The translations under genes and the position numbers were made by a program. Shown one piece after another: positions 618 through 46,709 of a stretch of 64,000 nt of DNA. Below the pieces are notes generated by a model that was given only the letters and a program-made list of their open reading frames with translations, had not been told where the DNA came from and did not search any database. The stretch's first letter is position 1. Every line of letters begins with the position of its first letter. Origin of the DNA: Ailanthus altissimus (taxonomy: Eukaryota > Streptophyta > Magnoliopsida > Sapindales > Simaroubaceae); contig OX327711.1 of the NCBI GenBank assembly GCA_946807835.1, positions 16,775,501 through 16,839,500 on the forward strand. The letters run 5' to 3'.

Positions 618-2099
618 TTAAAAATGAATTTGATGCCTGAAATGGCAGAATTTAACCAAAATTAGATGGATGTGCGGCAAAAGGCGACGAGTTTTCCTAT
701 CTTCATCACAAGCTTCGATGTCAATGCATTCATGAAAACTAGAAGCAGAAAGAAATACAGAAGATTCTTGCAGAAACCGACCTTACTGTATCCGAAGGGC
801 CTGAAGATGCTCGTCTAAAGTATATGTCTCCAGCTCAGGTGTCCTTTCTAACACGCTTGCAATGGCAGGTAGGTTCCATTCTCTTATCCTTGTCCCAAGT
901 GTTAAATTCTTAAGCTTTGAAGATGGAGAAGTCATATCCTTGCATATTGACGTAATCTAAACATTATCAAGAAAAAAGAACCAAAAGAACCAAAAATGTT
1001 AATCATACATATAATAAGATACAAAAACCTATTTATATGCCCACATTAATAAGTAAAGCTGGACCTGCCCCATTGATCGATGCTTCAAATAAGATAGTCA
1101 TTTTAGGGAATATTAAATACATGTATCAATATAAAATATTGAAGGATATTCGCTCTATTCAAACAAAATTATAGAATAATGATAAATAAAAAATTTAACA
1201 GGCAGTGATTGAAAACCTACTTGAAGGCACCAAGTATCGACGGTAACTTTCTGGACGTGAGGAAGCTCTTCAAGAAACTTCTTTAATCTATGGAAATTCT
1301 TCTCTCCGGGACTGATCAAAAGTTCACCATTGAACTTGTATCTTCTTTTGAAGATACCCCCGAGCAAGCTGATAGAAATAATATTAGGAGCCGAGATTTC
1401 TATCACCAATGTACTTGGCTGCACTTTCCCCCAAGAACCATCTATCACTAATTTTTTCAAATTCGAAGAGCTCACATCGAAAACCTGACTAACCCCATCG
1501 CAGCAGTGCAACCGCAAGGATTCAAGCATGGGACTACCTGATAAAACTTTTCCAATGATTTCATTACTCAACTTCGCATAGCCAATGATTAAAACCTTGA
1601 GTTTAGTCCAAGAAATACTCCCCATTAGCTGAAAATCACAGTATACGATATTCAATATCCTCAATGATGAAGAGGAAAATATATATTGAGGTAAAACATA
1701 GGGTTCAGCGTCGTCCATTAAATGTCTTCTTCCAGCGTAAGTAAAATTCAGACTGAGCTCCTCCACATGGCGTTTTGTGGCGAAAAGGACCCACTCATCT
1801 GCTTGCGAACTGAAAGACTGTTTATATCTAAAACGTCTAACGAGGAACTTTTCAATTTTCGAAGCATTGTATAGCCCTAGGGTTTTGTCGACAATTGAGG
1901 CCCATTTTTGTGAGGAATATTTGTTTGGGCAGTGGCAATAGAAGTTGAGACTAGGAACTGCAGTCCAAACAGTGAGCCATCTCTTCGATAAAACGCAGGT
2001 TTTTATGATGTCTCTGACGGTTAAAAAAGAAAGGATGTGTTGGATGATCGGATCGGGTAATGCGCTTATACGATCTTGGCCTTGATCTCCGCAGTCCAT
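618..2099 (-). CDS. F-box/LRR protein with FBD-like C-terminus, 3 exons
   Basis: Likely substrate-recruiting subunit of an SCF-type E3 ubiquitin ligase. The protein starts at ATG 2099 (a longer frame upstream has no ATG). Residues about 10-50 are a typical F-box: ISALPDPIIQHILSFL, then TCVLSKRW. Leucine-rich repeats of the F-box/FBD type follow (LRILNIVYCDF, KLKVLIIGYAKL, MLESLRLHCC, NLKKLVIDGSW). I assemble exons 2099-1221, 956-787 and 738-618, joined at GTAGGT/AG and GTAAGG/AG, giving 389 residues. Exon 2 encodes an FBD-like strand (LERTPELETYTLDEHL) and exon 3 the LLPHIHLILVKF motif. Oddity: intron 2 would be only 48 bp, short for a plant, although it has a good pyrimidine tract. If it is not spliced, the protein ends at TAA 785-783 after LRIQ. 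Substrate unknown. Confidence 0.78.
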
Positions 2100-2137
2100 T
2101 TTTCTTTCTCCCAAGACCGTGGGATCATTCGAGAGGT

Positions 2138-2245
2138 TTAGAGAATCTTGGAGACGTCGTGAAATATAGGAAACGAAGAGCCTGGCCTCGATGGGGTCAT
2201 TACTTCTGGAGAACTGTCGCCGCTCTCCCGCTCCTCCATGGACAT
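2138..2245 (-). promoter_or_regulatory. Possible upstream ORF in the F-box gene leader
   Basis: A 35-codon frame begins at ATG 2245 and ends 39 bp before the F-box start codon. It is rich in Glu, Ser and Pro (MSMEERESGDSSPEVM at its start). The same stretch can be aligned by eye with the leader of the F-box pseudogene at 25.9-26.04 kb, where the similar frame has lost its ATG. It may be a translational uORF or simply ancestral leader sequence; no splice from it into the main frame is evident. Confidence 0.3.
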
Positions 2246-2741
2246 GATCTTAATGACGGGCTTCTTTCTGTTTCACTTAAAATCGTCTTTCTCTTGACTT
2301 ACAAATTATTAAAACAAACTAGAAGTACATAACCTCTAAAAGACCTAGATTTTAGCTTTTTTCTTCTTTTAATTTGATTCCGTACTAAAACGATGATCTA
2401 TCTTCTAATTTTTTTTTTTTTTATCTCATGATTTATCTTCTATTAATAAGGTGGATTGCGGGTTTCAAACAGAACAGACGTAGTCAAGGATTCGGACCGA
2501 AAACAAAGAAAAAAAAATCAAAATTATGTTGTTTTTTATTTTTCTTTTGAATGATAATTAATTTGAAGTAGGATCTTTTAAAAAAAAATCAAAATTATGT
2601 TGATTTTTATTTTTCTTTTGAATGATAATTAATTTGAAGTAGGATCTTTTTTTAATCTAATCTTACTCAATTTTTTAAAAAAAATTTAATATATATATAT
2701 ATATATATTGCATTACGTATATATGGTTAAGACTTATTTTT
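2246..2741. repeat. AT-rich spacer with 71-bp tandem duplication and (TA)n
   Basis: No gene. Positions about 2510-2651 are two adjacent copies of a roughly 71-bp A/T-rich unit (each ends in aatttgaagtaggatctttt) with one or two differences, so the duplication is recent. A (TA)n microsatellite runs from about 2688 to 2709. Confidence 0.8.
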
Positions 2742-10283: not shown

Positions 10284-10288
10284 TAACA
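10284..10288. other. Target site duplication of element C, left copy
   Basis: taaca directly before the 5' LTR; the same five bases follow the 3' LTR at 19831-19835. Five bases is the usual length for Ty3/Gypsy integration. Confidence 0.9.
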
Positions 10289-13139
10289 TGTAGTAACCAG
10301 TATCCACGACTGGTAAGAATAAGTATTTATATATGTATAAATATACGTATTTTATTTGTATGTTGGTGATACTTGAATTATATATTGTTATTAGTAATAT
10401 TTTTATAGGTTAAGGATATACGATTAGTATTGGGTTTATTTGTATGACTTTAGATTTATTTTAGGGACCAAATTGTTATACTTTGAAAGTTTTAGGGGTG
10501 AATTCGTAAATACCAAAAATTAACCACTTAGTATAAAAATACACTTTTAAAAACCCTAATTCTCTCATTTTGGTCGAGCTACCCATTTTTAGAGAGAGAA
10601 GAGAGAAATAAAGGAGAGAGAAAGAGAAGAAGAAGAAGAAAAAGAAGAAGAAATTGGAATTTTGGATCTTTAGAGGTATATCACAACTAATTATCAATTT
10701 ATTGGCGTTAATTAAGTTAATTTCTTTAAGTTTTTATTTCTGGAAATATGTATAATTAAGGATTTGATGTGTATTTCGTTTGATGTTGTGAGAATTGATG
10801 ATGATCTATAAGATAGTTTGATAAATCATGATGAATTATGGAATTTCTGCTGGATAACCTCTTGATCTAGGAAATTTATAAATTGTTGTGATTCGATTCT
10901 GGTTTTGAATTTTGAGTATATGAAATTAGACATGTTTAGGATCATCTGAGACTTTGAATCGACTGAAAATCTCAGAAATTGAATTTGTAGTGAATTTACC
11001 AAAATGACCCTGGAATTCTGGAAATTTCCTGTGTAAACAGTATGATACAGTGGAAAATAATTTTTGACCTGCTGAATGATCTTTAAAAATTACGAATTTG
11101 TGGAATATGATAATTTTATATGTCTAATATGATATACTCGGAATTGAGAATTTGGATCAATGTGGTTGAAGTGTTATGAATTTCTAAAGTGTATCAGCTC
11201 ATTGTAGTATTTGATTAACAGATTTTTAAAGTTATGAAATAAAATAGTTTTAAAATACTTTTGGCAGTTATTTGGAAGCCAAATATTTATCATGGACTGA
11301 GATATGTGTCAAGAGTAATTATGTGGTAGTTTTATAATTTTTGAGTTAGTATATGATTTTATAAAATTGGGAGATTGAATACTGTTCAGTAAGTATCTTG
11401 ATCCTGTCAGGTTTGTAGTTTGGATTCGATGGTGTGTATGGAATGGATTGTGTAGGAATTTTGATATAATATTCATATATAAGAAGTATATATGAGTCAA
11501 GAATGATATATTCTGATTTCGGAGTAATTGGACATCATTTGATGTATTAGAAATTTTTGTTAAGTGTAAGTGGTCAGAATGACAGGTTTTGAGAAACCAA
11601 ATATTTAGACCAATTTGATGTGATAAATGCATTGTGTATAATTTTGTAAGCTATTTAAAGTATTTTGTGTGAATTGTGAGGCTTATAAAAGGATTAATCT
11701 CCATTGATAGGTTAAGGAGATTTAAGCCTTGTAGCTGAAAGTGTTAAGAGGTAAGTATACTAGACTTACTACTGGAATCACAATAAACATAATAATTGTT
11801 TTGTATGATTTTGTAAATGGGGTTAAGAATATGTTTATGATATGTCAAAGTATATTTTGATATGAAATGTGAATATATGTTTATGAATGTGAGCATTGAC
11901 ATTGAGCATGGACATACATGTGTTTTTTTGAAAGTGAGCTTTCCAAAATAAGATGCGTTTAACAAAGAAAGCTTTTGAAGTGTAATATGTCCATGAGAAA
12001 TATTTTGTGATTTGAGGGTACTTGAACTCACTGTTAACTTAGTAGGCATTTTATGTGATTTGTGGAGCCTTTATGTGTGGCCTTTCCTTCGGGATTGGTA
12101 TATGTTATGTGTTCCGTATGTAGGGAGGATCCTATTGGTACCTAAAGGAAGTGTGAGTCATCACATTCGTGTGGTGGCGTATTGGTACATGTGAGAGGAC
12201 TCACCGATGATCAGGGTGAGGGTTTGGCTTTTACCTTCGGGCATAAGCGTTATATATGTGTGATTAAAGACCTCACTTGTACTATTCCTCTCATACGGTA
12301 TGTCACCTACGAGTGACATTTGGCTCATTATGTGATATGTGATATGTAAGTCCTACTAAGTAGTAGTCGAGTAATGGTATTCCTATTATGTGTTTTGAAA
12401 GAATGTGTAAGCGCTTACATGATATGTGATTTGATAAGATTATGATTTTGATTGATCACAGCATATCATACATATGCATTGTGTACATATATGTATTTGT
12501 ATTTGATATATGAAAAACTAGTATGCTTACTGAGTTTTATACTCATTATAGTTTATGGTGATTTCAGGTAAATAAGGTACATGTGTGCATAGCGGATTTG
12601 GCAAGGCTTCTGCTGTTCCTTGGGTTCCCTAAGTTGTTAGGTTGCTAAGTGTTTTATTTGGGGACACGTGGGATAAGATATTTGATTTGTCCCTAGTGAA
12701 TAAATACCTATGTATTATTTTATTGTGTGGTTGGATTTAGTTTAAGTTTCACCAAGTGTAGTAATGGATTGATTTTAAGTAAGAATTTGCAATGGATATA
12801 TTCTGGGCTCCCGGTAACAAAGTTGCTACTGGTGACGTAGTAGAGTGTTAATCTCTGAGAAAACTCTGCGTATCTCCGGTTTAATAATTGTCCCAGTCAT
12901 AATTCAATTGCTATAATTCTGAAAGAAATTGAAATGAATGTTTAAATATTGTCAAGAGAAGTTTATATTTATATGTTAGGTTATGGTTGATTTTAGTGTT
13001 GAACTTACTAGCAACTTGCTAAGGATTTCTGTGTTGAATGAAAGTTGAAAATTTTGTGTAATATTATTTATGAGTGCACATGCAGTGAATGAATGTAAGT
13101 GATGTCGTGTGTCGGATCTTTTGGGTCTGGGGCGTGACA
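10289..13139 (+). repeat. 5' LTR of element C
   Basis: 2851 bp, begins tgtagtaacc and ends gggcgtgaca. It contains a GA-rich run (10591-10652) followed by many short A/T-rich stretches; no gene is supported within it. Its apparent identity with 16980-19830 implies a very recent insertion. Confidence 0.95.
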
Positions 13140-13584
13140 GCTTTTATTGGTATCAGAGCTAAGATATGATTCTGTAGACTTTTAAGTGTCGAGTCAAGGG
13201 AACCGAGCAGATGCCAAATCCTTAGGATTGTATTTGTAGCTTTGTTGTGTAAAAGTTTGACATATTCCTTAAATTTTGTATGATTTTGTGAAGATGACAC
13301 AGTATCCAAGAGCTGCTAAGATTGTTGTTGTTGTGGATAATGGTACCTTGTGGATCTTAATGTTACCATTTAGATTTTCTTTTAAGTTATGACTAATATG
13401 CTTAGTAAGAGTGATGTTGAATATCTTATAATGATAATTTTCATGTGATAGAGCAAATTGAGATAATTTTCTCAATGACAAAATATAGAGAAGTAGAGTA
13501 TTGAAGACATCAATTGAAACAACTTTTATTGAAAAGGAAAACAACAACACAACAACAATAGCAGCAACAATAATACAGTAGAGG
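13140..13584 (+). other. Internal leader of element C with vestigial frame
   Basis: After the primer site a 32-codon frame opens at ATG 13294 (MTQYPRAAKIV...) and closes at a stop. It may be a trace of gag but is too short to classify. An AAC/CAA-rich stretch at about 13540-13572 precedes the LOG stop codon. No other gene seen. Confidence 0.4.
13148..13160 (+). other. Primer-binding site of element C (initiator tRNA-Met)
   Basis: tggtatcagagct, eight bases inside the 5' LTR. This is the complement of the 3' end of plant initiator tRNA-Met, the commonest primer of plant LTR elements. It fixes the element's transcription direction as plus. Confidence 0.9.
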
Positions 13585-14238
13585 CTACGGAGTGAGATTT
13601 AAGTCTATTTTGCGCTTCTTCTGACTGTCATAAGTAGACCAGTCTAACTGATGCAATGTTGGATTAGACAGAGGAATAAAAGACTGCAATTGATCAATCA
13701 GTTGATCAGCAGTTGGAGCAGAAATAAGAATTCGTCGTGCTAGAAGTGGGATGAATTGTGTTCCCACTACATAGTCAAGAAAAGATATCAACCCGTCGTA
13801 AAAACCATTAACATTTAACAAACCAATGGGTTTTTGGTGGATTTGTAATTGTGCCCATGAGACAATTTGAAAAATTTCCTCCAAGGTCCCGAAACCTCCT
13901 GGTAGAGCTATGAAAGCATCCGCATGCCTAAGCATTTGAGCCATTCGCTCGTGCATAGATGAGACTTGTAACTCATCCCCAATTGTTTTTCCTACAACAT
14001 TTTCAATAGCTAGAGGTTTTGGAATGATACCCAAAACTCGACTACCTTTATTGTGTGCAGCTTTTGCCACAGACCCCATTAACCCTCGGTTACCTCCTCC
14101 ATATACTAAATGTATATTTCGCTCAGCTAATACCTTACCAAGATTTTCTGCAACTTTTGTAAACTCTTCAGTATTCCCAGGGTTGGATCCACAAAAGACA
14201 CAAATTTTTGTGAATCGACGAGCTGAGGTTTCCTCCAT
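13585..14238 (-). CDS. LOG: Cytokinin riboside 5'-monophosphate phosphoribohydrolase (LOG), intronless, inside retroelement C
   Basis: LOG enzymes cleave cytokinin riboside 5'-monophosphates to the active free base plus ribose 5-phosphate in one cytosolic step. The 217-residue frame starts at ATG 14238; an in-frame GTG four codons upstream is not the start. Seen: KICVFCGSNPGN (11-22), LVYGGGNRGLMG (44-55), VLGIIPKPL (68-76), MHERMAQM (95-102), the signature PGGFGTLEE (113-121), and GLLNVNGFYDGLISFLD. Length matches the family. The family motif MHxRKxxM keeps its Arg (residue 98) but Lys 99 is Met. Plant LOG genes normally contain several introns; this copy has none, so it probably derives from a spliced transcript captured by element C. 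It is antisense to the element and has a TATA box 60 bp upstream. No frameshift or stop. Whether it is expressed is unknown. Confidence 0.93.
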   Translation of the reverse strand: MEETSARRFTKICVFCGSNPGNTEEFTKVAENLGKVLAERNIHLVYGGGNRGLMGSVAKAAHNKGSRVLGIIPKPLAIENVVGKTIGDELQVSSMHERMAQMLRHADAFIALPGGFGTLEEIFQIVSWAQLQIHQKPIGLLNVNGFYDGLISFLDYVVGTQFIPLLARRILISAPTADQLIDQLQSFIPLSNPTLHQLDWSTYDSQKKRKIDLNLTP

Positions 14239-14297
14239 TGTTATGCTCACCCTAATCTTTGAATATTTTTGAGTTTGTATAAGGATGCAATAATAAT

Positions 14298-14305
14298 GTA
14301 TTTAT
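14298..14305 (-). promoter_or_regulatory. TATA box of the captured LOG gene
   Basis: Minus strand reads tataaata, flanked as ctctataaatac, about 60 bp before ATG 14238. It is an ideal plant TATA sequence at a plausible distance, so the retrogene may own a promoter rather than rely on LTR transcription, which would be antisense. Confidence 0.55.
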
Positions 14306-14835
14306 AGAGAAACAAATTGATAATAGCTGTGGAGCATATGTGTAAGTATGTTCAAGTATATATTTTTCTCGATTCTTGTGAGGTAAAACAAAAAAAAAAA
14401 GAATGAGTTTTACTTTATCATTTTATAAGGGACAATAGGTCGCAAAATCTTGAATAAATATATGTTGATATGTAAGTGTGATAAAAAAATTGTGTCAGAA
14501 GTGTGATAAGTTAGGTAAGATAATTAAGAAAAGTCAATAAAGGCCTATTTCATGGATTTAGGGACTTAGCCATTTTGGCACTAATGGTCGACAATACATC
14601 AATGACTTGAATACTTTTTGAGCTAACAATTGGACTTTGGACATGAGGCCAAATTAACTTTATTAATTACAAAGATTTTGTGGTCTTAACATTAATTTTT
14701 GGCCGATAGATTAAAAGCAGATATGAAGAAAGATAAAGCACACTTGACATAAAGATAAAGCAGTAATCAGTCTCTCTTTGATGTGATAGAGCAACACGGA
14801 TCTAGTTTCTGTGAAAATAGAAACAACAATGTAGG
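14306..14835. other. Spacer between the two cargo genes of element C
   Basis: About 530 bp, AT-rich, no coding frame. It must hold the upstream promoter region of LOG and the 3' end of the second gene, both of which read on the minus strand. Confidence 0.5.
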
Positions 14836-16029
14836 TCAAAATGAGTCTCCTTGGTCGCTTTCATCTGTGTCGTATCCGTGAGAGAGGAACTTATGGAGTT
14901 GTTGTTCCCATACATTGAATGAGGGCTCTGGTGGAGTGGAATGTGGGTCTACCATATCTTGATCTTCTCCAGGTGAGCTGGTCTGGATGAGGGATGTGCT
15001 GGCTTCCTCTTGGATTTGGGTGTCGGTTGGATAAGGTTGGGAGTCTTGAAAGAGGGATAAGTCAAGATTGGGTTGGTGTTGGTCAAGTTCTGTCGGGACA
15101 ACTGGCTGAGATTGAGTAGGTTCTGTCGGGACAACTGGCTGAGATTGGGTAGGTTCTGTCGGGACAGTTAGCTGAGGCCATTGGTGAAGGTTATTCATTG
15201 CTTGTCTGTATCTGGCATAATAAGTCATGTTTGGGATATGGTGATGATGAGTAGAGTAATCTGTATTTCTGATATGTGAAAGATGATATTTTTGTCTTTG
15301 TTGAAATTTGAGTATATTGGCAAAATTCAGGTCTTCTGTAAAGTCAGCTTCAACTTGTTCCCAAGGTGCAGCATCTTCTGGGGAGATCCAAACAGACGGA
15401 GGAATTATTTGATTTTCCTGAGCAAGAACTCTTTCAAGTTCTCTCTTTTGCTGAATTACTTCTTCAGGCCAGAGCTTAATTGATCCCTTTAGTGAAAGGG
15501 TAAATGTGAAGTAATCCTTAACAGTGGGGTAATAATGAATCTCGTGATCTGAAATAATCATACCCTTCCGTTGGAGAAGTAAGACTGACCAAAGATGTTG
15601 TCTGGGGACTGCAGCATTTGTGTTGTTTGCAATCATGTATTGAAATTTAGTTATCCACCATGTCTTTGGGTAAAACCATTGGAGAAAAATCAGGGCTGGA
15701 TGATCTTCATCACATTTTTCTAATTTTTGGAGGGTTCTAAGTAATGGAAATTCCATGGCAATTGTATACAGATCCAACAGGTACCATAACAAGTAAAGGA
15801 CAGGTTTGGACCATTGGGAAAATGGGAAAAAAGAGTGCAGGTGAAAGAAAGGGTATTCTAAGTTGAACAAAGGGCCACCAAGAACTGTGAGGCCGTGTTC
15901 TTGGACTGCTAAGATGGCGTAGTGTCTGATGAATTCTTTGGCACGGGAATGGAGTGTTCTGGTTTTGATTAGGTCTGGAAATTGTGGTGGAGTAAAAGGA
16001 ACAGGAGGAGTTATGATAATGGGATTCAT
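14836..16029 (-). CDS. Unidentified 397-residue protein, cargo of element C
   Basis: An intact frame that I do not recognise. An ATG at 16128 would lengthen it by 33 residues but lies upstream of the TATA box, so I choose ATG 16029 (MNPIIITPPVPFTPPQF). The N-terminal two thirds looks globular and is rich in aromatic residues (FFHLHSFFPFSQW, LYLLWYLLDLY, LIFLQWFYPKTWWITKFQY). It continues with an acidic Trp/Pro region (PPSVWISPEDAAPWEQ) and a His cluster (STHHHHIPN). The C-terminus is low-complexity: tandem VPTEPTQSQPV repeats, then Ser/Asp/Glu-rich to GYDTDESDQGDSF. No reverse transcriptase, protease, zinc knuckle or clear membrane segment. It could be an element-encoded accessory protein or a second captured host gene. 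It is co-oriented with LOG. Confidence 0.7.
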   Translation of the reverse strand: MNPIIITPPVPFTPPQFPDLIKTRTLHSRAKEFIRHYAILAVQEHGLTVLGGPLFNLEYPFFHLHSFFPFSQWSKPVLYLLWYLLDLYTIAMEFPLLRTLQKLEKCDEDHPALIFLQWFYPKTWWITKFQYMIANNTNAAVPRQHLWSVLLLQRKGMIISDHEIHYYPTVKDYFTFTLSLKGSIKLWPEEVIQQKRELERVLAQENQIIPPSVWISPEDAAPWEQVEADFTEDLNFANILKFQQRQKYHLSHIRNTDYSTHHHHIPNMTYYARYRQAMNNLHQWPQLTVPTEPTQSQPVVPTEPTQSQPVVPTELDQHQPNLDLSLFQDSQPYPTDTQIQEEASTSLIQTSSPGEDQDMVDPHSTPPEPSFNVWEQQLHKFLSHGYDTDESDQGDSF

Positions 16030-16090
16030 TATGAAGATGGTAAGAGGGTTGGTTTTCTTTATTGCTAGAAAAGTGATTATGAGGTTTAGG

Positions 16091-16099
16091 CTATTTATA
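16091..16099 (-). promoter_or_regulatory. TATA box of the unidentified cargo gene
   Basis: Minus strand tataaatag, flanked as ctctataaatag, about 62 bp before ATG 16029. The spacing is nearly the same as for LOG. It supports the downstream start choice and an independent promoter. Confidence 0.55.
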
Positions 16100-16129
16100 G
16101 AGTTTTGTGAAAGAAAATCAATAATCATT

Positions 16130-16979
16130 TTGTTCTTTCCTTTTCCGTAGATGACGTTAAAGGAATAGTTGAAAAACCATATTTGCCATCGCAGTAATTG
16201 TGCTAGTGCAATCTTTTCTGTTTGAAACTGAGCATATTAGAAAAAGCAGACATGTCAGTCTCAATGAGAAAATGATGTCCAATAAGGTGGACTATTTTTT
16301 TTTAAAGAGTTAAAGTAAGAGATATAATGTTAAAACCTATAGTTTAAGAATCAGTTGAACTAAAGGTCTTTTTATTGAAGTTGATTTTTGATCGTTTAAG
16401 ATAATGCCTTCAATATTCTGATTTGAATGACAACTTAGTTGCGTAGAAATGTTACATTTTTTTTGAATGATATCAAAGTAGTGAATGATATTATGACGTA
16501 TGAGTATATGTTGAAGGGATTAAAATTTTTAAAGGAGTTAAGAATTTTATGTGAGAGATTAGTATGGGTATTCTACATCTATATTATTCTTTAATGAATA
16601 AAAGGTGAAGTGTATAGATGCCCATTAAATATTGAATGAATGAGAGAAAAGAATAAAAATATGTGTGTATATATTTTATAAGTCCATAATGTGTGTCATG
16701 TGTTTATTTTATGGATGAATGTTTCGTACTTCTCTCATATACTAAGCTATGAGCCAACTTAGAGATAATCGAACATATGAATGACTGTTTATCAGGATTT
16801 TGGACCACAATGAGAAAATCCTATATACAAGGAAGATTGCTTTGTAAATGTTTTATGAATAAACCATATTGTTGAAAAGGAAACTTGGGAATGAGAATAA
16901 GAAATGAGATCTAAGTATCCCCATATGTTTGCTTAAGTCATGAATTTCGAGGACGAAATTCTTATAAGGAGGGGAGAAT
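16130..16979 (+). other. 3' internal region of element C with pol-end remnant and polypurine tract
   Basis: AT-rich and without an open frame. The last 40 bases read gaatttcgaggacgaaattc (16942-16961) followed by the polypurine tract aaggaggggagaa (16966-16978). This pattern is typical of the end of Ty3/Gypsy pol in plants and suggests that the interior was replaced while both termini were kept. Confidence 0.6.
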
Positions 16980-19830
16980 TGTAGTAACCAGTATCCACGA
17001 CTGGTAAGAATAAGTATTTATATATGTATAAATATACGTATTTTATTTGTATGTTGGTGATACTTGAATTATATATTGTTATTAGTAATATTTTTATAGG
17101 TTAAGGATATACGATTAGTATTGGGTTTATTTGTATGACTTTAGATTTATTTTAGGGACCAAATTGTTATACTTTGAAAGTTTTAGGGGTGAATTCGTAA
17201 ATACCAAAAATTAACCACTTAGTATAAAAATACACTTTTAAAAACCCTAATTCTCTCATTTTGGTCGAGCTACCCATTTTTAGAGAGAGAAGAGAGAAAT
17301 AAAGGAGAGAGAAAGAGAAGAAGAAGAAGAAAAAGAAGAAGAAATTGGAATTTTGGATCTTTAGAGGTATATCACAACTAATTATCAATTTATTGGCGTT
17401 AATTAAGTTAATTTCTTTAAGTTTTTATTTCTGGAAATATGTATAATTAAGGATTTGATGTGTATTTCGTTTGATGTTGTGAGAATTGATGATGATCTAT
17501 AAGATAGTTTGATAAATCATGATGAATTATGGAATTTCTGCTGGATAACCTCTTGATCTAGGAAATTTATAAATTGTTGTGATTCGATTCTGGTTTTGAA
17601 TTTTGAGTATATGAAATTAGACATGTTTAGGATCATCTGAGACTTTGAATCGACTGAAAATCTCAGAAATTGAATTTGTAGTGAATTTACCAAAATGACC
17701 CTGGAATTCTGGAAATTTCCTGTGTAAACAGTATGATACAGTGGAAAATAATTTTTGACCTGCTGAATGATCTTTAAAAATTACGAATTTGTGGAATATG
17801 ATAATTTTATATGTCTAATATGATATACTCGGAATTGAGAATTTGGATCAATGTGGTTGAAGTGTTATGAATTTCTAAAGTGTATCAGCTCATTGTAGTA
17901 TTTGATTAACAGATTTTTAAAGTTATGAAATAAAATAGTTTTAAAATACTTTTGGCAGTTATTTGGAAGCCAAATATTTATCATGGACTGAGATATGTGT
18001 CAAGAGTAATTATGTGGTAGTTTTATAATTTTTGAGTTAGTATATGATTTTATAAAATTGGGAGATTGAATACTGTTCAGTAAGTATCTTGATCCTGTCA
18101 GGTTTGTAGTTTGGATTCGATGGTGTGTATGGAATGGATTGTGTAGGAATTTTGATATAATATTCATATATAAGAAGTATATATGAGTCAAGAATGATAT
18201 ATTCTGATTTCGGAGTAATTGGACATCATTTGATGTATTAGAAATTTTTGTTAAGTGTAAGTGGTCAGAATGACAGGTTTTGAGAAACCAAATATTTAGA
18301 CCAATTTGATGTGATAAATGCATTGTGTATAATTTTGTAAGCTATTTAAAGTATTTTGTGTGAATTGTGAGGCTTATAAAAGGATTAATCTCCATTGATA
18401 GGTTAAGGAGATTTAAGCCTTGTAGCTGAAAGTGTTAAGAGGTAAGTATACTAGACTTACTACTGGAATCACAATAAACATAATAATTGTTTTGTATGAT
18501 TTTGTAAATGGGGTTAAGAATATGTTTATGATATGTCAAAGTATATTTTGATATGAAATGTGAATATATGTTTATGAATGTGAGCATTGACATTGAGCAT
18601 GGACATACATGTGTTTTTTTGAAAGTGAGCTTTCCAAAATAAGATGCGTTTAACAAAGAAAGCTTTTGAAGTGTAATATGTCCATGAGAAATATTTTGTG
18701 ATTTGAGGGTACTTGAACTCACTGTTAACTTAGTAGGCATTTTATGTGATTTGTGGAGCCTTTATGTGTGGCCTTTCCTTCGGGATTGGTATATGTTATG
18801 TGTTCCGTATGTAGGGAGGATCCTATTGGTACCTAAAGGAAGTGTGAGTCATCACATTCGTGTGGTGGCGTATTGGTACATGTGAGAGGACTCACCGATG
18901 ATCAGGGTGAGGGTTTGGCTTTTACCTTCGGGCATAAGCGTTATATATGTGTGATTAAAGACCTCACTTGTACTATTCCTCTCATACGGTATGTCACCTA
19001 CGAGTGACATTTGGCTCATTATGTGATATGTGATATGTAAGTCCTACTAAGTAGTAGTCGAGTAATGGTATTCCTATTATGTGTTTTGAAAGAATGTGTA
19101 AGCGCTTACATGATATGTGATTTGATAAGATTATGATTTTGATTGATCACAGCATATCATACATATGCATTGTGTACATATATGTATTTGTATTTGATAT
19201 ATGAAAAACTAGTATGCTTACTGAGTTTTATACTCATTATAGTTTATGGTGATTTCAGGTAAATAAGGTACATGTGTGCATAGCGGATTTGGCAAGGCTT
19301 CTGCTGTTCCTTGGGTTCCCTAAGTTGTTAGGTTGCTAAGTGTTTTATTTGGGGACACGTGGGATAAGATATTTGATTTGTCCCTAGTGAATAAATACCT
19401 ATGTATTATTTTATTGTGTGGTTGGATTTAGTTTAAGTTTCACCAAGTGTAGTAATGGATTGATTTTAAGTAAGAATTTGCAATGGATATATTCTGGGCT
19501 CCCGGTAACAAAGTTGCTACTGGTGACGTAGTAGAGTGTTAATCTCTGAGAAAACTCTGCGTATCTCCGGTTTAATAATTGTCCCAGTCATAATTCAATT
19601 GCTATAATTCTGAAAGAAATTGAAATGAATGTTTAAATATTGTCAAGAGAAGTTTATATTTATATGTTAGGTTATGGTTGATTTTAGTGTTGAACTTACT
19701 AGCAACTTGCTAAGGATTTCTGTGTTGAATGAAAGTTGAAAATTTTGTGTAATATTATTTATGAGTGCACATGCAGTGAATGAATGTAAGTGATGTCGTG
19801 TGTCGGATCTTTTGGGTCTGGGGCGTGACA
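16980..19830 (+). repeat. 3' LTR of element C
   Basis: 2851 bp, same ends and same length as the 5' LTR. The short ORFs seen in both copies are identical and have no recognisable product, so I do not call them genes. Confidence 0.95.
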
Positions 19831-19898
19831 TAACAAGTATAAGTAAATTATTGATACTATAATATTAAAACTATTCTCATCTAATAATATATAAAAAA

Positions 19899-22170
19899 AT
19901 GTTACAAGAAATTTGACTTTTAACTACAATAAATTTTGTGGCTAATGATTTTTTTTATGAATTTTGTGGCTAATGATTTTTTGTCATAAAAAAAATTCTT
20001 GACAATTTTTATCACTTATAGTGCATGGTAGATTGTATATAGCCACAAACTTATTACGTTGTTAAATTTTATTTCATACTTGATTCCCTTTATTATTGGA
20101 GATAAAAGATTTGTTATAAAAATCATGATTATATCATTTTTGTGACTAAAGATACCTTTTAACCACAAGGTATTTGTGTTTAAAGATGATACAATTAGTT
20201 ACAAAACTATTTGTGATTGAAAAAGCATTGTTTAGATATATATATTTTGTGACTAAATGTACTATTTAGCCACGATATACTTTTTGGCTAAATATTTTAT
20301 TTAGCCATGCAATTTGTGTTCGTTACTAAATATTTTTACTATTTGGCAATAAAATATTTTGCAGCTAAATATGTTACCATTTAAACACAAAGAAATAAAC
20401 TATTTAACCACGAAGTATTTGTTACAAAATATTCTTTTAGCCACCAAATGTTTTATTACATAATCAAAATATATTGTGGTTAAATATATTTAACCATAAA
20501 ATTAATTTATTAAATATTATAAAAATAAATATATTATAATTGTTATATTTTATATTTTTATATTTATTTTATAATTTGAAACTGATATTTTATAGATCAT
20601 TATATGTATATATAAAACTTTTACAGTATAATTATTTAAGAATACATATGAAAATAATAATAATAATTAATTATGTTAATTGATTCAACAAAGTGTAATA
20701 AAAAGTATTTCAAATACAAAATAAAAATAGAAATATACAATCATGATTGAAGTGACTGCGAAGATTGCTGTAATGATGAAAGCATATCATCCGGAATAAT
20801 CCTACTAATAACAATCTTGAATTGTTTAAACTGAGTAAATAAATCATCAATAGAACTCTATTATGATTGCACAATAGTTTTGGTCTCTTGCAATTCTGTC
20901 TTTGTCGCCTCTAACTTATTATGTAATACTACCTCATTTTGACTAAATGTTCTCTATAGATGTGATTTTCTCCTAACTTTAAGTCCCGAGTAGTAAGTCT
21001 TTTTCTTTCCAAACACCTTTTTAAATAAATGTTTATCATTGAATTATTTTCATATCTCAGTATTTATCTGCTTCTGAAGTTGCACCATCTTCTCCAATAA
21101 ATAATGAAAGTCAAATATTAACAAAATAATAACTTCACTATATTAACAAATTAATTAACTAAAAGAAATAATGTCAAACATGTAAAAATAATAACGAAAA
21201 CACTTATATATCATGATTGCACCTCAGAATTAACTCATTTTTTATTAGCACTTTAATAGGTAGTCAAAAATAAATTTGAAAAGTTTTGTACTTCTCTACT
21301 CTCATTTAATGTATAAACTAGATATTTAAAATATAATAAAAATATGTGAAATATTGTAAAGATATAAAAATAAAATGACTATTTTACCTTAGAATTTTTA
21401 CGATGGATAATAAATAATTTAGACCCACCATAATAATTATATGATAGTTTCTTCTTATTTTTCACATTTTTCTTACACCTTGCTTGAAAATAAAAAAAGT
21501 AAACTTTAGTATAATATATAATATAAATTGTATAATAAACTTTAGTATAAAATATGTGAAATATTGTTAAGATATAAAAATAAAATAACTATTTTACCTT
21601 AGAATTTTTACGATGGATAATAAATAATTTAGATCCACCATGATAATTATATGATAGTTTCTTCTTATTTTTCACATTTTTCTTGCACCTTGCTTGAAAA
21701 TAAAAAAAAAGTAAACTTTAATATAATATATAATATAAATTGTATAATAAACTTTAGTATAAAATATGTGAAATATTGTTAAGATATAAAAATAAAATGA
21801 CTATTTTACCTTAAAATTTTTACGATGGATAATAAATAATTTAGATCCACCATGATAATTATATGATAGTTTCTTCCTATTTTTCATATTTTTCTTACAC
21901 CTTGCTTGAAAATAAAAAAAAAAAGTAAACTTTAGTATAATATATAATATAAATTGTATAATAAACTTTAGTATAAAATATGTGAAATATTGTTAAGATA
22001 TAAAAATAAAATAACTATTTTACCTTAGAATTTTTACGATGGATAATAAATAATTTAGACCCACCATGATAATTATATGATAGTTTCTTCCCATTTTTCA
22101 CATTTTTCTTACACCTTGCTTGAAAATAAAAAAAAGTAAACTTTAGTATAATATATAATATAAATTTAAA
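19899..22170 (-). mobile_element. Degraded CACTA (En/Spm) transposon fragment
   Basis: The left end, ttacaagaaatttgactttt at 19901-19920, matches the usual CACTACAAGAAA-type terminus with its first bases altered. From there to about 20480 there are many short copies, in both directions, of a motif like ttgtggctaa, as in CACTA subterminal regions. On the minus strand 20740-21120 has coding-like but stop-ridden sequence, and 21388-22130 carries exons resembling the plant transposase (Ptta/En/Spm, TNPA-type) family. The other terminus was not found; the copy is inactive. Confidence 0.55.
21341..22165 (-). repeat. Four tandem copies of a ~212-bp unit, each containing a transposase exon
   Basis: Unit starts (aatatgtgaaatattg) lie at 21341, 21551, 21763 and 21977, so the period is 210-214 bp with few differences. 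On the minus strand each unit contains a 95-bp exon flanked by an AG acceptor (ttttcaag) and a GT donor (gtaaaat); in the first unit it is 21482-21388. The exon encodes CKKNVKNKKKLSYNYYGGSK and then LFIHRKNSK, like the conserved Lys-rich, Gly-Ser-containing part of Ptta/TNPA proteins. Slippage or unequal exchange has multiplied one exon. Confidence 0.8.
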
Positions 22171-27096: not shown

Positions 27097-27168
27097 GTCG
27101 TTGTAGTATAGTGGTGAGTATTCCCGCCTGTCACGCGGGTGACCCGGGTTCGATCCCCGGCAACGGCG
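27097..27168 (+). tRNA. tRNA-Asp (GTC)
   Basis: 72 nt. Acceptor stem GTCGTTG pairs with CAACGGC, and G is the discriminator base. The D arm contains the A box tagtatagtgg. The anticodon stem is CCCGC/GCGGG around loop CTGTCAC with anticodon GTC at 27130-27132. The T arm is CCGGG/CCCGG with ttcgatc (B box ggttcgatccc). CCA is not encoded and a T4 pol III terminator follows at once. No intron. It lies only about 320 bp upstream of the APC4 start codon on the same strand. Confidence 0.97.
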
Positions 27169-36157: not shown

Positions 36158-39100
36158 CTATGAATCATCTAACTCAACAAGTTGTGCCCGCCTCTCAGCA
36201 GCCTTCTTCCTGATAAAGATACCCCACCTGAGGGCTGCCTTCAGCTTCAGCCACCCAACAACAGCTTTGCCAGATGAACGTGAACTATCATCATTAAAGC
36301 TGAAGTTTGGAGATGGGTTGGCCATGAATGCAGATGAATAAGGATATGCATCTTCTGTAACATTGAAGGAAGGATGGCCTTGGCCTCCCATATTGAAGAT
36401 ACGAAGTAAATGCTGCTGCATGTCTTCATTCTCAAGCATCTCGTGACTTCTCATACGAATCTCCTCCTCTGAAAAGATGTCTTCAACTCCCCTATAAGTA
36501 GCAGGATTTGATGTACCAATAGTCTGGATACCCAATAAAGATGAGTGTGGCGGACCAAGGGCCAAAATATTTTCACTCCTTGAAAGATGGGATTCCTGTG
36601 GAACACCGACTAATGGGTTCTGTAGAGGGAATGAAGTACCATCAAATTGAATGGGAGCATTCACGTTTACATTCTGTGGCTGTATGGAGAAACTGGAATG
36701 TATGCTATTATCATAACCTAGACAGGAAAAGAAAAAATATTCATGTAGTCAGCAACCAAACATGTGAACAGGCACAAGCTCAGCCTTAGAGAAACAATAT
36801 GGAAAGCTTCAAAGCTACCACATTATAGAAAAAAAATGTCTTTTACCTATAAACTACTTTCTATATTGATAAAGCTATATTTGACAATGTTTTACTTTGA
36901 AAATAATACCTCCAACTGTTAAACCAGAATCTAGCAAAGGCTGCTCTGGAGGAACTGGAACCAACAGGGTTGGTAGAGTGAGCTGTTGGTCAAACGAATT
37001 TTCATAATTTTGTGGACCTGTTGGAATATCAGGTTGAGGAGGACCTACACTCTTATTCTGTGTAAATCCTAACAGAGACTTGCCATCATACTCTATTACA
37101 TGCATCCAGTTTTCATATGCCTTCTTGACTAAGGTATCCACATTGACCTGCATGAACCAAACCACTCTCAGATTTTTCAAGCTTTCATCCTTCTAATTGT
37201 ACACAAATTTCTATAAATATCTTATACAATGTTAAACTTTCAAAAGAACAGAAGTGATATATTTCAAAACTTCAGCATTCAATGAAACCATAAATGTGAC
37301 CATCATATATTTGTATTATTATGGACCAATTTGTTGATATAAAAGATATGTTTGTGACCAGTCATATAGACAAGTACATAATATTTATTTAAGATTTGAT
37401 GATATGAAAGAGCCAGAAAAGCAAAATTAGTGAAACAAAGAAGACTAATTATAAAGACTGAAACCAAGATTAAGTTCCAAAAGCACATCAGATGTAAGAT
37501 AACTAATGATATGAAACCACATAAATATATACCTTCTGACTGTTAGAGAGAGAATCAGCTGAATGATATTGTCCATTAGCAATGAGGCCACAGAACTCAT
37601 AAATATTGTTAAAAACAACACCAACATTCCTTGCATCGTCAGGATAATACACATACAGTTTCCCACTTAGCACACAAGTCTTTGCATGCTCCACGAGAAT
37701 ATCCCACATCTTATTGGACATGCCGCTTCCCAGGATCTACAACAAATGGATCAGCAAAACAATTACAAACAGTAATATGTGGATTTGATCAGTGATTTGA
37801 CAACCAAGCCTACGTTCTTACATTTCGCAACCCCTGTAAGTCTCTAACAACAAGTCGTAGGAAGTCTTCAACTGTGAAAATTCCAGCTTTATTTAGCCTC
37901 TTATGAAATGACCCATCTTTACCAATCTTCTCTAATCTCCATACCTCATCATTGAGTGCAGGTGGGTAGTGTTTCTTGTACACTGCAAAGAGGAAGAAAA
38001 AATGCAGATTTCTCATCTTCCCCTCAAACAAAGAAAACAAATAGACAACACTCAAAGAAATCTACTATAGAAGTTTCGGCTGTAATTAAGAACTCACATT
38101 CTCCCCTATGATCCTTAACAGTGAAGGCATCTGTTTTTGCTTCACGTATGCGAACACCTTCAGAAAAATCGGAGGCAACCTTCAGGCCTAACCTGAACTT
38201 CCTGCTCCTTATCCAGCTTGAATTGTCAGTAAATGTAAGCTCCCCTAATGTTCCTACTCCTTCCTTCAGAGTCACTTGCAGATCCCCAGTGAGCAGTGGC
38301 CTCTTTCCTTCACGTTCTTTGACCACATGACTCTCAAATTCTTCTGGAGTCCAATTATTGTCATCTTCATTGTTGAAACCACCTTCAAGAACCACAATAT
38401 CTACTTTCACCGAGGACTCTGGACCGGTTGTGACAATATGACCTGTGCTTGCATCAATCAAGACAATATGGATTGCAGCACCCTGCTCCCCTTCCACTTT
38501 CCCTCCAGTAAAGAGAGGAAGTGACAACCTAGACCTGAAGTGCAGCTGCAAGTTTCTACCATCAGATCCTTCAATACATTTTGGAGAAGACCTGCTTAGA
38601 ATGCAAAGCATCACTTCAGTGGCAACAACAGCAAACACAAGAATCAATGAAATTGTAAATGAAAGCTATAGCTTGAAATGAAAAGGTGCAAAATCCTAGT
38701 AACACCCACCCGCCATTTACTGAACAAACCTAACCTGATTCTACTGGGTTGATACTGGAGATATGACTCATTGTGTTTTGAAATAAATTAATAGCCAGAT
38801 CTCAGCCAATCAACCCTCTTAAGAACTATAGACAAATTCTTGCAAGAACAGCTGGCAGACAAGTTAGCCCACCGTATATCTGGGTATAAAGCAATGAACA
38901 AGCCATTTCATGTAAGGAATTACAACCATCTTTGCCAATCCAACTTACTTTTGGTGAGTAAAGAGAATCTAGCATATAGTCTTTTCCGTAATTCAAATGA
39001 AAATGAGGCAAAATTTCCTAACCTGCAAAAGATGTTCTCTTTTTTTATATATATTTTGTGGCTAAATACCTGCAGAAGAACTTAAAACGATGCACGACGC

Positions 39101-45184: not shown

Positions 45185-46709
45185 AGTTGTATTTTGATGT
45201 GCTAAAAATTAAATCAAGGCCATCCATTTTGAATCATTCTCCCCTAAATCTCACTATATGATTGTGCACTAAGAAAATAGCATGTGCTATGTTCTAACAC
45301 AGTGGAGGTTATAATTGAGCCCCCTCAAGCAAATATGGCAAATATGGCAAAGGTAAAATTACTCTCACATCTTTACTTATTTTAAATAAAGAAAAATTTG
45401 TCATTAGATAGTTTTAAAAAAAATGAAGCAGAGTGAGAATTTTTTGGTCAAATAAGAAATTTCAAAAGATAAAAAAAAAAAAAAAGTGCAATTAGTTAGA
45501 ATGTGCCACGTGTCACAAAAAAGTTAGTTTTTATTATTTCAACACCTCAACATTAAGAACTAGGGGAGCTGATATTATGAATAAAAGATTGGTGACACTT
45601 CGTCTGACCTAGAGTAAGTTACCTTTATGGAATTAAGCTTGGGCCTAAATGCTTGGATCTCCACAAGTCAATCTATGAAACCCATCTAGTGGGACTTGAA
45701 TGATAACATATATTACCACTCAGTAACAGTATCAAAGGACAAGTCATCGAAGTTTGTATGCTTACCACGTTAGCATAGGCCCACCAACAATTGTACACGT
45801 CAGTATATCTTAAGTCATGCCACGTCAGTAGCATGGCCCATTATAGAAGCACTTAAATACCACGTCATACGAGCTATTAGACCTAGAGATAAGATGGGAT
45901 AAGAGATTTTCCAAAGAACCAATGAGTGGACGCCATATCAACATGCATAGAGTTTTGTTCGCTAGTGATATTATTGACACAATAGACAAAAGGTGTCTGA
46001 AGTAGGTAAACAATTCAGCTTAAGACCTGTCGAGTTCAGGGGAAAAGAGTCAGAAATCGAGCTCCCAGATTTCACCAACTCGACCTGACAGCTTAAAAGT
46101 AACTAATCACAAATATTCCTAGTAATCCAAACGCCATGGGAGATGAAATGATATTTTTTCCCTCAAGTGAAGTTTTTCAAAATATCTCTCATGATATGAA
46201 CTGTTATCCAATAGTAGTTCTCCATGTGTCGCATTTGAGGAGAAATCTCCATGTTGGTACCTCAAAGCTCAAGTTAAGTCTCTAAAATTGAGAGGTCGTA
46301 AGATAACAATTGAACAATTTGAATTTTGAACTCTCTCTAGTAAGAGAAAACTATTAATCTTCTCTCTAGAATTTATACACTTTATTTGGAGCAAGTAAAC
46401 CCTAGGAAACTTTCTACATAATACACCTACTTGATTTAAGCGTTAAAGGGCCATCACCGTCTACCTCGCCAGCACTTGCCACTAACCTCACGTGCTCTAT
46501 ATTCCTCATATCCCCTTAGGTTGCCCAGTTCCAACTTAGTGTTCAACTTACTCTCAACTCAGTTTTGGACTCTCCACTATCAAGACGACCTCTAACTCAA
46601 CCCTCGGGGATAAAAGGCTTAAGAAACTCATATTTTCTAACACCTTTCTCTCTCACACACAACTCGTTAGGGTCGGGCTTTTATCGAGGTCGAAATTTAA
46701 AGCTTAACA
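45185..46709 (+). repeat. 5' LTR of element B
   Basis: About 1.5 kb, ends gcttaaca. It aligns with the 3' copy through shared blocks such as agcataggcccacca and gtcatgccacgt. It carries one copy of the block that is triplicated in the 3' LTR (from about 46113). The left limit is uncertain by tens of bases. Confidence 0.65.

Follow-up and report, generated by a model that had tools for sequence, protein, structure and literature searches.

A high-copy LTR retrotransposon of Ailanthus altissimus carries an antisense LOG cassette shared with other element families

The element at the locus

The stretch analyzed here, referred to as the window, comprises 64,000 nucleotides of the Ailanthus altissimus genome (C29:16775501-16839500, in an assembly of 939 Mb and 37 contigs) and harbors a long terminal repeat (LTR) retrotransposon with two genes, a LOG frame and an open reading frame (ORF) named ORF X, both in antisense orientation. 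The 5' LTR (10289..13139) and the 3' LTR (16980..19830), both on the plus strand, are direct repeats of 2851 bp, and a blastn self-match aligns them without gaps and with 2851 of the 2851 bases being the same. The element is bordered by two copies of the 5-bp target-site duplication taaca (10284..10288 and 19831..19835). A primer binding site of the tRNA-Met type (TGGTATCAGAGC; 13148..13159, plus strand) lies 8 nt past the 5' LTR and a polypurine tract is found at 16966..16978 (plus strand), so that the hallmarks of an LTR retrotransposon are complete. A TATA-like box at 10532 is one of ten such matches within the 5' LTR. The scan for gag and pol domains was negative for both long interior frames and for eight short ones, the latter being part of the 70 stop-to-stop interior frames of at least 30 codons; the lone match among the eight short frames is to an unrelated SAM-like domain (E=0.045, below threshold). 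In the scanned frames the element thus has neither gag nor pol, as would be needed for an autonomous LTR retrotransposon.

All these features are in agreement with the original prediction, made from the sequence letters, which had described matching LTRs, a perfect target duplication, an initiator-methionine primer site with a polypurine tract, an interior without gag-pol, and a very young element. The age of the insertion is bounded from above only, by the zero differences over 2851 bp. With respect to the primer site, most chromoviruses and the Ty1/copia elements use tRNA-Met, and gypsy elements that are not chromoviruses do not, according to one account (PMC6317226). Because the window element has a site of the type that the non-chromoviruses avoid, it probably does not belong to the Athila lineage.

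The LOG frame (13585..14238, minus strand) consists of 217 codons and a stop, is intronless, matches Pfam PF03641 (E=4.8e-40), and encodes the PGGFGTLEE sequence, as had been predicted. It is preceded by a TATA box (14300..14306, minus strand) about 60 nt 5' of the ATG and followed by a polyadenylation-like AATAAA (13525..13530, minus strand) 55 nt past the stop. The closest solved structures are those of Arabidopsis At2g37210 and At5g11950, which we take to be LOG3 and LOG8 (the LOG3 name is also found in PMC4979012). The AlphaFold2 model has a predicted local distance difference test (pLDDT) score of 84.3 and superimposes on LOG3 (2a33) with a template modeling score of 0.92-0.93, when normalized by target length. 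The fold, the PGGxGTxxE motif, and the catalytic arginine and glutamate are as in LOG3 and LOG8, as expected of a LOG-type protein, whereas the N6/prenyl pocket is altered, a basic and repression motif-like C-terminal tail is present, and introns are absent. The sequence identity is 44-48% to eight aligned LOG3-like proteins and 59-97% to 37 aligned relatives; to LOG3 it is 51-52%, when only the structurally matched core is considered.

The second antisense frame, ORF X (14836..16029, minus strand, 397 codons), had been overlooked in the original prediction and is conserved in the element family. A TATA box (16093..16099, minus strand) is positioned about 65 nt 5' of its ATG, a candidate AATAAA lies past its end (14659..14664, minus strand), and a 33-bp tandem repeat occurs within the frame (15087..15166, minus strand). 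ORF X has no recognized domain: it matches no Pfam family and no viral contig, its structure model is uninformative (pLDDT 33.6), and among 5.8 billion proteins a single relative was found, being a 98% copy of itself.

Copy number and substitution patterns of the two frames

A search of the genome with the LOG protein gives 6213 first-look candidates, and the 150 that were scored all share 97-100% identity with it across 216 or more of the 217 residues. The original prediction had asked whether the LOG frame might be broken everywhere else; it is stop-free in 146 of the 150. The corresponding search with ORF X gives 2640 candidates, with all 104 scored being full length and 97-100% identical, and 93 stop-free. 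These numbers (at least 150 LOG and at least 104 ORF X copies) are lower bounds. Because there are at least 150 near-identical copies, the LOG element is not a chance product; it belongs to a non-autonomous LTR retrotransposon of high copy number, of which the window holds a very young copy. Several pairs of LOG copies are about 6.5-6.7 kb apart, fitting tandem elements that share an LTR.

Twenty copies chosen by LOG all contain LOG and ORF X (in one case partial), and in 19 of them two LTRs, or pieces of both, are present within the stretch. All but one of these 20 have a stop-free LOG; as to ORF X, 11 have it at full length and stop-free, 2 have it open but 33 bp shorter, and in 7 it is broken or cut. 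The 15 copies that are readable at both ends have 0-9 mismatches per 2.7-2.86 kb between their LTRs, and their 5-bp duplications match exactly in 12 and with one base different in 1, the other 2 copies ending in tandem arrays. A second sample was taken from the ORF X ranking and consists of its first 24 copies without an entry in the LOG list. In all 24 of them LOG adjoins ORF X, and the LOG frame is unbroken in 20, with a stop in 3 and gaps in 1.

This second sample was not selected by LOG and is therefore used for the substitution counts. Choosing copies outside the LOG list leans against LOG conservation and a high ORF X rank leans toward young copies; the p values are guides, since variants are not independent where copies share ancestry. 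In the 23 gap-free copies, the LOG variants comprise 34 synonymous, 41 nonsynonymous, and 4 stop changes, giving a ratio of 1.32 as compared with 3.31 expected (p=7.5e-5), or 2.46 expected when transitions are weighted fourfold (p=0.0051). The sample includes four copies with a stop in ORF X, whose addition left the ratio at 1.32, and the result is unchanged when identical sequences are counted once (19 left). Of the variants shared by two or more copies, 18 are synonymous and 10 nonsynonymous or stop (16 and 7 with identical sequences counted once). Single-copy variants, counted in the first 19 copies, are 33 nonsynonymous or stop and 16 synonymous, which is near neutral (p=0.33). This combination of constrained shared variants and nearly neutral single-copy variants is expected if constraint acts on the source copies, with the dead ones left to drift.

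Other comparisons point in the same direction. In 18 LOG-chosen sequences (3 of the 20 copies being dropped as too short), LOG codon positions 1, 2, and 3 vary by 0.86, 0.69, and 2.36%, and of four blocks outside both frames three vary by 2.2-2.9% and the fourth by 1.6%. The ratio of nonsynonymous to synonymous divergence (dN/dS) is 0.32 between the window LOG and LOG-B, a LOG of other elements in this genome described below (synonymous divergence, dS, 0.48), 0.23 between the window LOG and LOG-C, a third such LOG, and 0.14 between LOG-B and LOG-C. The ORF X counts come from 14 sequences, namely the window and those 13 LOG-chosen copies, out of 20, whose length is equal (the other 7 being left out for this reason). 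They comprise 45 synonymous, 59 nonsynonymous, and 2 stop changes, a ratio of 1.36 with 3.70 expected. The LOG-chosen set of 21 sequences has 30 synonymous, 13 nonsynonymous, and 1 stop change in LOG, but this set is biased by the choice on LOG score and proves little. Taken together, the patterns in copies not chosen by LOG suggest, with moderate confidence, purifying selection.

It is also conceivable, though rather unlikely, that the two genes serve as inert filler, replicated by successful master elements, and that recent amplification alone accounts for their conservation. The copies are indeed young and alike, as their LTR mismatches indicate, the single-copy variants are near the neutral ratio, and six LOG-B copies (2 synonymous, 7 nonsynonymous, and 2 stop changes) show no selection, albeit in a small set. 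Such filler does not readily explain the excess of synonymous changes among multicopy variants, the low variation at the first and second LOG positions (0.7-0.9%) as compared with 2.4% at the third and with most of the blocks outside the frames, or the long-term dN/dS of 0.14-0.32.

For the antisense block as a whole, an origin as an endogenous caulimovirid fragment, with an RNase H end, ORF X as the next gene, and LOG as an extra viral gene, is very unlikely. This possibility is raised by about 49 codons in frame before ORF X (16091..16236, minus strand) that weakly resemble the RNase H end of PDB entry 8r0s (E=0.011-0.12), annotated as 'Enzymatic polyprotein', which we take to be a caulimovirid protein name, and by the TATA box that precedes ORF X. 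However, the score is marginal, a Pfam match is absent, and the open frame of ORF X is 422 codons in 95 of the 104 copies, such that the RNase H-like stretch, being open in the window, is closed there. In addition, Athila-like elements already account for LOG, and a close LOG was not found in IMG/VR, where one search gave none and another gave one remote match of 35%. A caulimovirid origin of the entire block was rejected on the weak match and the closed frame.

Origin and relatives of the LOG cassette

When the same genome is searched with a LOG3-like query, 5682 candidates are obtained, and all 150 scored are further intronless LOGs, with 51-53% identity to the query; 12 of them contain a stop. 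With mobile LOGs occupying all 150 scored places, this view covers the mobile LOGs and the host LOGs with introns lie outside it. Seven loci were inspected, six with LOG-B (L030-L035) and one with LOG-C (L036). LOG-B is located in sense orientation behind a frame encoding the end of an integrase in five of the six LOG-B loci, and LOG-C behind pol pieces containing stops. In one LOG-B element that was traced upstream (L037, on C30), a single 1288-codon frame carries protease, reverse transcriptase, RNase H, and integrase domains. From sequence features and printed cases, the LOG-B and LOG-C elements appear to be Athila-like Ty3/gypsy elements.

The window LOG shares with these elements more than its coding region. 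The LOG cassette (13454..14309, minus strand), consisting of the TATA box, a short leader, the LOG frame, and the polyadenylation-like signal, matches the L030-L035 pieces with 76-82% identity in blastn. The match to LOG-B starts at the TATA box (CTATAAATACA) and extends beyond the LOG stop, and a leader comparison shows that a TATA box of the same kind precedes LOG-C. In the window element the cassette is inverted relative to the LTRs. By these comparisons, at least three element families of this genome possess the cassette, which is old and includes a promoter-like box of its own, and confidence is high for the anatomy of the element, its copy number, and the shared cassette. Because dS between the window LOG and LOG-B is 0.48, the LOG lineage must be far older than the insertion.

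The comparisons bear directly on the proposal of the original prediction that the element had captured a spliced host mRNA. An intact intronless frame inside a young element is what would be expected if the element had recently taken up a spliced host LOG mRNA and become a mobile cytokinin-activation gene, and a closer host parent may lie outside the view, given that the scored LOG3-like places are all mobile LOGs. Such a capture is nevertheless highly improbable and was rejected. Among the relatives found, those closest to the window LOG are intronless and reside in other retroelements, the nearest other LOG being located in Athila-like elements; the identity to the LOG3-like proteins is low when compared with that to the relatives; and the dS value places the lineage long before the insertion. 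The shared block extends 5' of the start codon to include a TATA box, and an mRNA would not carry such a box. The cassette is thus best described as an old, intronless retroelement LOG cassette that has apparently been passed between element lineages with its promoter, and not as a host mRNA caught by this element. Least probable of all is the suggestion that read-through RNA from the 5' LTR, to which LOG is antisense, silences host LOG genes by pairing with their mRNA, since 44-48% protein identity makes long pairing unlikely and the constraint tracks codon positions; such RNA could instead regulate the mobile LOG itself.

Further observations concern LOG copies and LOG-B elements elsewhere in the genome. 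Matches of a 253-codon LOG class are paired about 10.8 kb apart (C1:28384998 with C1:28395851 and C3:33583107 with C3:33593933), a spacing that suggests full-length elements arranged in tandem with a common LTR. In L037, an ORF located between pol and LOG (L037:373-960, minus strand) matches Viral_NABP (PF05515; E=2.1e-7, 31.6 bits with a cut-off of 23) and, weakly, Carla_C4 (E=0.0047), with no match in the PDB; its frame is open in four of the six LOG-B loci and split in two. This ORF probably encodes a cysteine-rich nucleic-acid-binding protein of the carlavirus type, adjoining LOG within a Ty3/gypsy element. One literature search listed no text that treats the two subjects, such a viral-type gene and LOG, together.

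The relatives of the window LOG were analyzed as the best 120 of 7908 matches, together with 120 LOG3-like proteins listed of 7990. Most of these best 120 relatives are listed without a species name; of the named ones, many belong to Reevesia pubescens and some to Xanthoceras, Paulownia, and Populus. A tree was calculated for 67 rows, comprising the window LOG, 41 of the 120 relatives, 22 of the 120 LOG3-like proteins, LOG8, and two bacterial rows. In this tree the window LOG and the relatives are on one side of a branch with support 99/96, and LOG8 groups with the LOG3-like rows; the rows were picked by similarity to two queries, which favors the split, LOG5- and LOG7-type proteins were left out, the bacterial rows have long branches, and the midpoint root serves for drawing only. 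By this analysis the mobile LOGs are a single clade. Their genomic context was viewed in this genome; for the relatives from other species, a location on mobile elements is probable too, as judged from copy number, frame, and the published examples of Citrus and Populus.

The tail is a distinguishing property of this clade. The window protein ends in KKRKIDLNLTP (codons at 13588..13620, minus strand), with a basic run followed by a sequence of the DLNxxP kind, and relative P0002 has the latter likewise. In 21 copies the tail is exact in 19, has one change in one, and is preceded directly by a stop in one. An LxLxL pattern within the last 14 residues is found in 99 of the 120 relatives and in none of the 120 LOG3-like proteins, and a run of at least three lysines or arginines within the last 18 residues in 102 and none, respectively. 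Motifs of the form LxLxL or DLNxxP are known as ethylene-responsive element binding factor-associated amphiphilic repression (EAR) motifs and recruit TOPLESS. The DLNLTP of the window protein has this form and is located at the C terminus, in a region (residues 202-217) where the pLDDT is below 50, such that it is predicted to be exposed.

The clade is also distinguished by its substrate pocket. In the Corynebacterium LOG (PMC4979012), Arg99 and Glu122 are proposed to be catalytic, Met96, Lys100, and Glu121 bind the adenine, and a role in holding the prenyl group is proposed for Met96, His97, Lys100, Glu125, and Trp129; activity was nearly abolished when the adenosine monophosphate-binding and catalytic residues, except Ser19, were replaced by alanine. 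The window LOG keeps the equivalents Arg98, Glu121, Met95, His96, and Trp128, and in the adenine/prenyl pocket the lysine is replaced by Met99 and the equivalent of Glu125 by Gln124. The pocket lysine is kept in 12 of the 120 relatives and Glu125 in 13, as compared with 120 of 120 LOG3-like proteins for each. Among the relatives, the histidine is kept in 67, Met96 in 96, the tryptophan in all 120, the catalytic arginine in 114, and Glu122 in 115; all five are found in every one of the 120 LOG3-like proteins. With the catalytic pair kept and two pocket residues changed, the production of active cytokinin assumed in the original prediction is only a possibility for the window protein. Because 11 of the 12 relatives that keep the lysine are without LxLxL (the pattern left 2 of the 120 unread), the pocket change and the gain of the tail appear to go together.

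A possible role for the mobile LOG

The explanation that best accounts for these findings, to which we assign a probability of about two in three, is that the window element carries a two-gene antisense cargo that includes an old mobile LOG cassette with its promoter, encoding a protein that acts on the host. Accordingly worded, LOG is a kept cargo of selfish DNA and not a freshly caught host gene. The element would be mobilized in trans by the gag-pol of an autonomous, tRNA-Met-primed relative, and LOG and ORF X would each be transcribed from the minus strand, as suggested by the TATA boxes about 60-65 nt 5' of each ATG. The LOG-fold protein, with its catalytic residues kept, is predicted to bind a nucleotide monophosphate and may hydrolyze it. 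The altered N6 pocket and the tail would point away from plain cytokinin release and toward a regulatory effector. Such a protein might act in the host nucleus or meristem, on nucleotide or cytokinin turnover and/or through TOPLESS-type co-repressors, and it could, speculatively, benefit the survival or germ-line spread of the elements, for example, if meristem cells are kept dividing or repression is altered. We infer, in short, an active promoter, action in the nucleus, and a benefit to the elements, with low confidence as to the function of the protein. Selection on the cargo of a non-autonomous element would fit a cell-wide benefit, because an effect on the cell or lineage helps all copies within it.

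Several points weigh against this explanation. It is not easily understood why the cargo of an element that is non-autonomous should be under purifying selection, unless there is a benefit in cis or to the cell as a whole. The motifs LxLxL and DLNxxP are short, and 21 of the 120 relatives are without LxLxL, with one of these (P0002) having DLNxxP instead. The LOG frame is broken in 4 of the 150 scored copies and in 4 of the 24 ORF X-chosen copies, and PGGFGTLEE is altered in 1 of 21 copies. The nearly neutral single-copy variants and the LOG-B copies described above belong here also.

Genes of this kind have been encountered in retrotransposons before. In the abstract of Steinbauerova et al. 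2011, two Athila-like elements are said to have similarity to LOGL4. YgdH/LOG domains have been reported from the consensus sequences of gypsy elements in two Citrus species and, under less strict filtering, in Populus (PMC9289625, where the former study is cited), so that the description of the cargo as unusual in the original prediction is only partly right. The carriage of a LOG (YgdH/LOGL4-like) is the same in these Ty3/gypsy elements, which the LOG-B and LOG-C elements resemble. The window element differs, as far as the available part of the Citrus/Populus account allows comparison, in that its LOG is antisense, has its own TATA box, and stands beside ORF X, in an element with a tRNA-Met-type site in which no gag-pol was found; changes like those of the tail and the pocket are not mentioned in that part (PMC9289625). 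In the available parts of PMC7264820 and PMC11963269, antisense genes conserved across copies are also described in the LTR elements Grande, RIRE2, and Retand, but these ORFs are located between pol and the 3' LTR, those of Retand are mostly TRP28, and LOG is not mentioned. The main text of a paper on LOG evolution, in its available part, does not contain 'retrotranspos' or 'intron' (PMC11593424). A literature search on LOG with endogenous pararetroviruses, retrotransposons, or intronless expansion found nothing closer. Large retrotransposon derivatives (LARDs) and other non-autonomous LTR elements share with the window element the long LTRs, primer site, polypurine tract, target duplications, absence of gag-pol, and many copies. 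LARDs are regarded as noncoding, and unlike them the window element has two conserved frames. New in the present sequence analysis are the recognition of one mobile LOG clade, the EAR-like tail in 99 of 120 relatives, and the loss of the pocket lysine in 108 of 120.

As a rule, genes carried as cargo by retrotransposons are taken to be accidental. Here, a LOG is kept intact in at least 150 near-identical copies, it occurs in several element families, and among the named matches its relatives are found in rosids and asterids, suggesting that retrotransposons exploit host-hormone or co-repressor pathways. More tentatively, it is possible that plant LTR retrotransposons share a pool of accessory genes, as viruses do, in which a LOG with a lost cytokinin pocket, a TOPLESS-recruiting nuclear tail, and its own promoter would be passed between unrelated lineages, in one of them beside a carlavirus-type nucleic-acid-binding protein, and would serve as a retrotransposon effector reprogramming host transcription, silencing, or meristem state. 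In practical terms, LOG-like or hypothetical proteins of Reevesia, Xanthoceras, Paulownia, and Populus may be element genes, and counts of the LOG family may be inflated by them.

The remainder of the window contains features outside the element. A tandem array of about four 214-bp units, which are 96% alike, follows at 21339-22166, and a 441-bp tandem repeat of three units, with related sequence about 5 kb away, is recorded for 51368-52684 and 45338-46638. An F-box/LRR gene is present at 1158-2249 (minus strand), an exon of a host gene of the calmodulin-binding-protein type at 38027-38665 (minus strand; PF07887, E=2.1e-64), and a tRNA gene at 27097-27168 (plus strand; 60.3 bits in Rfam).

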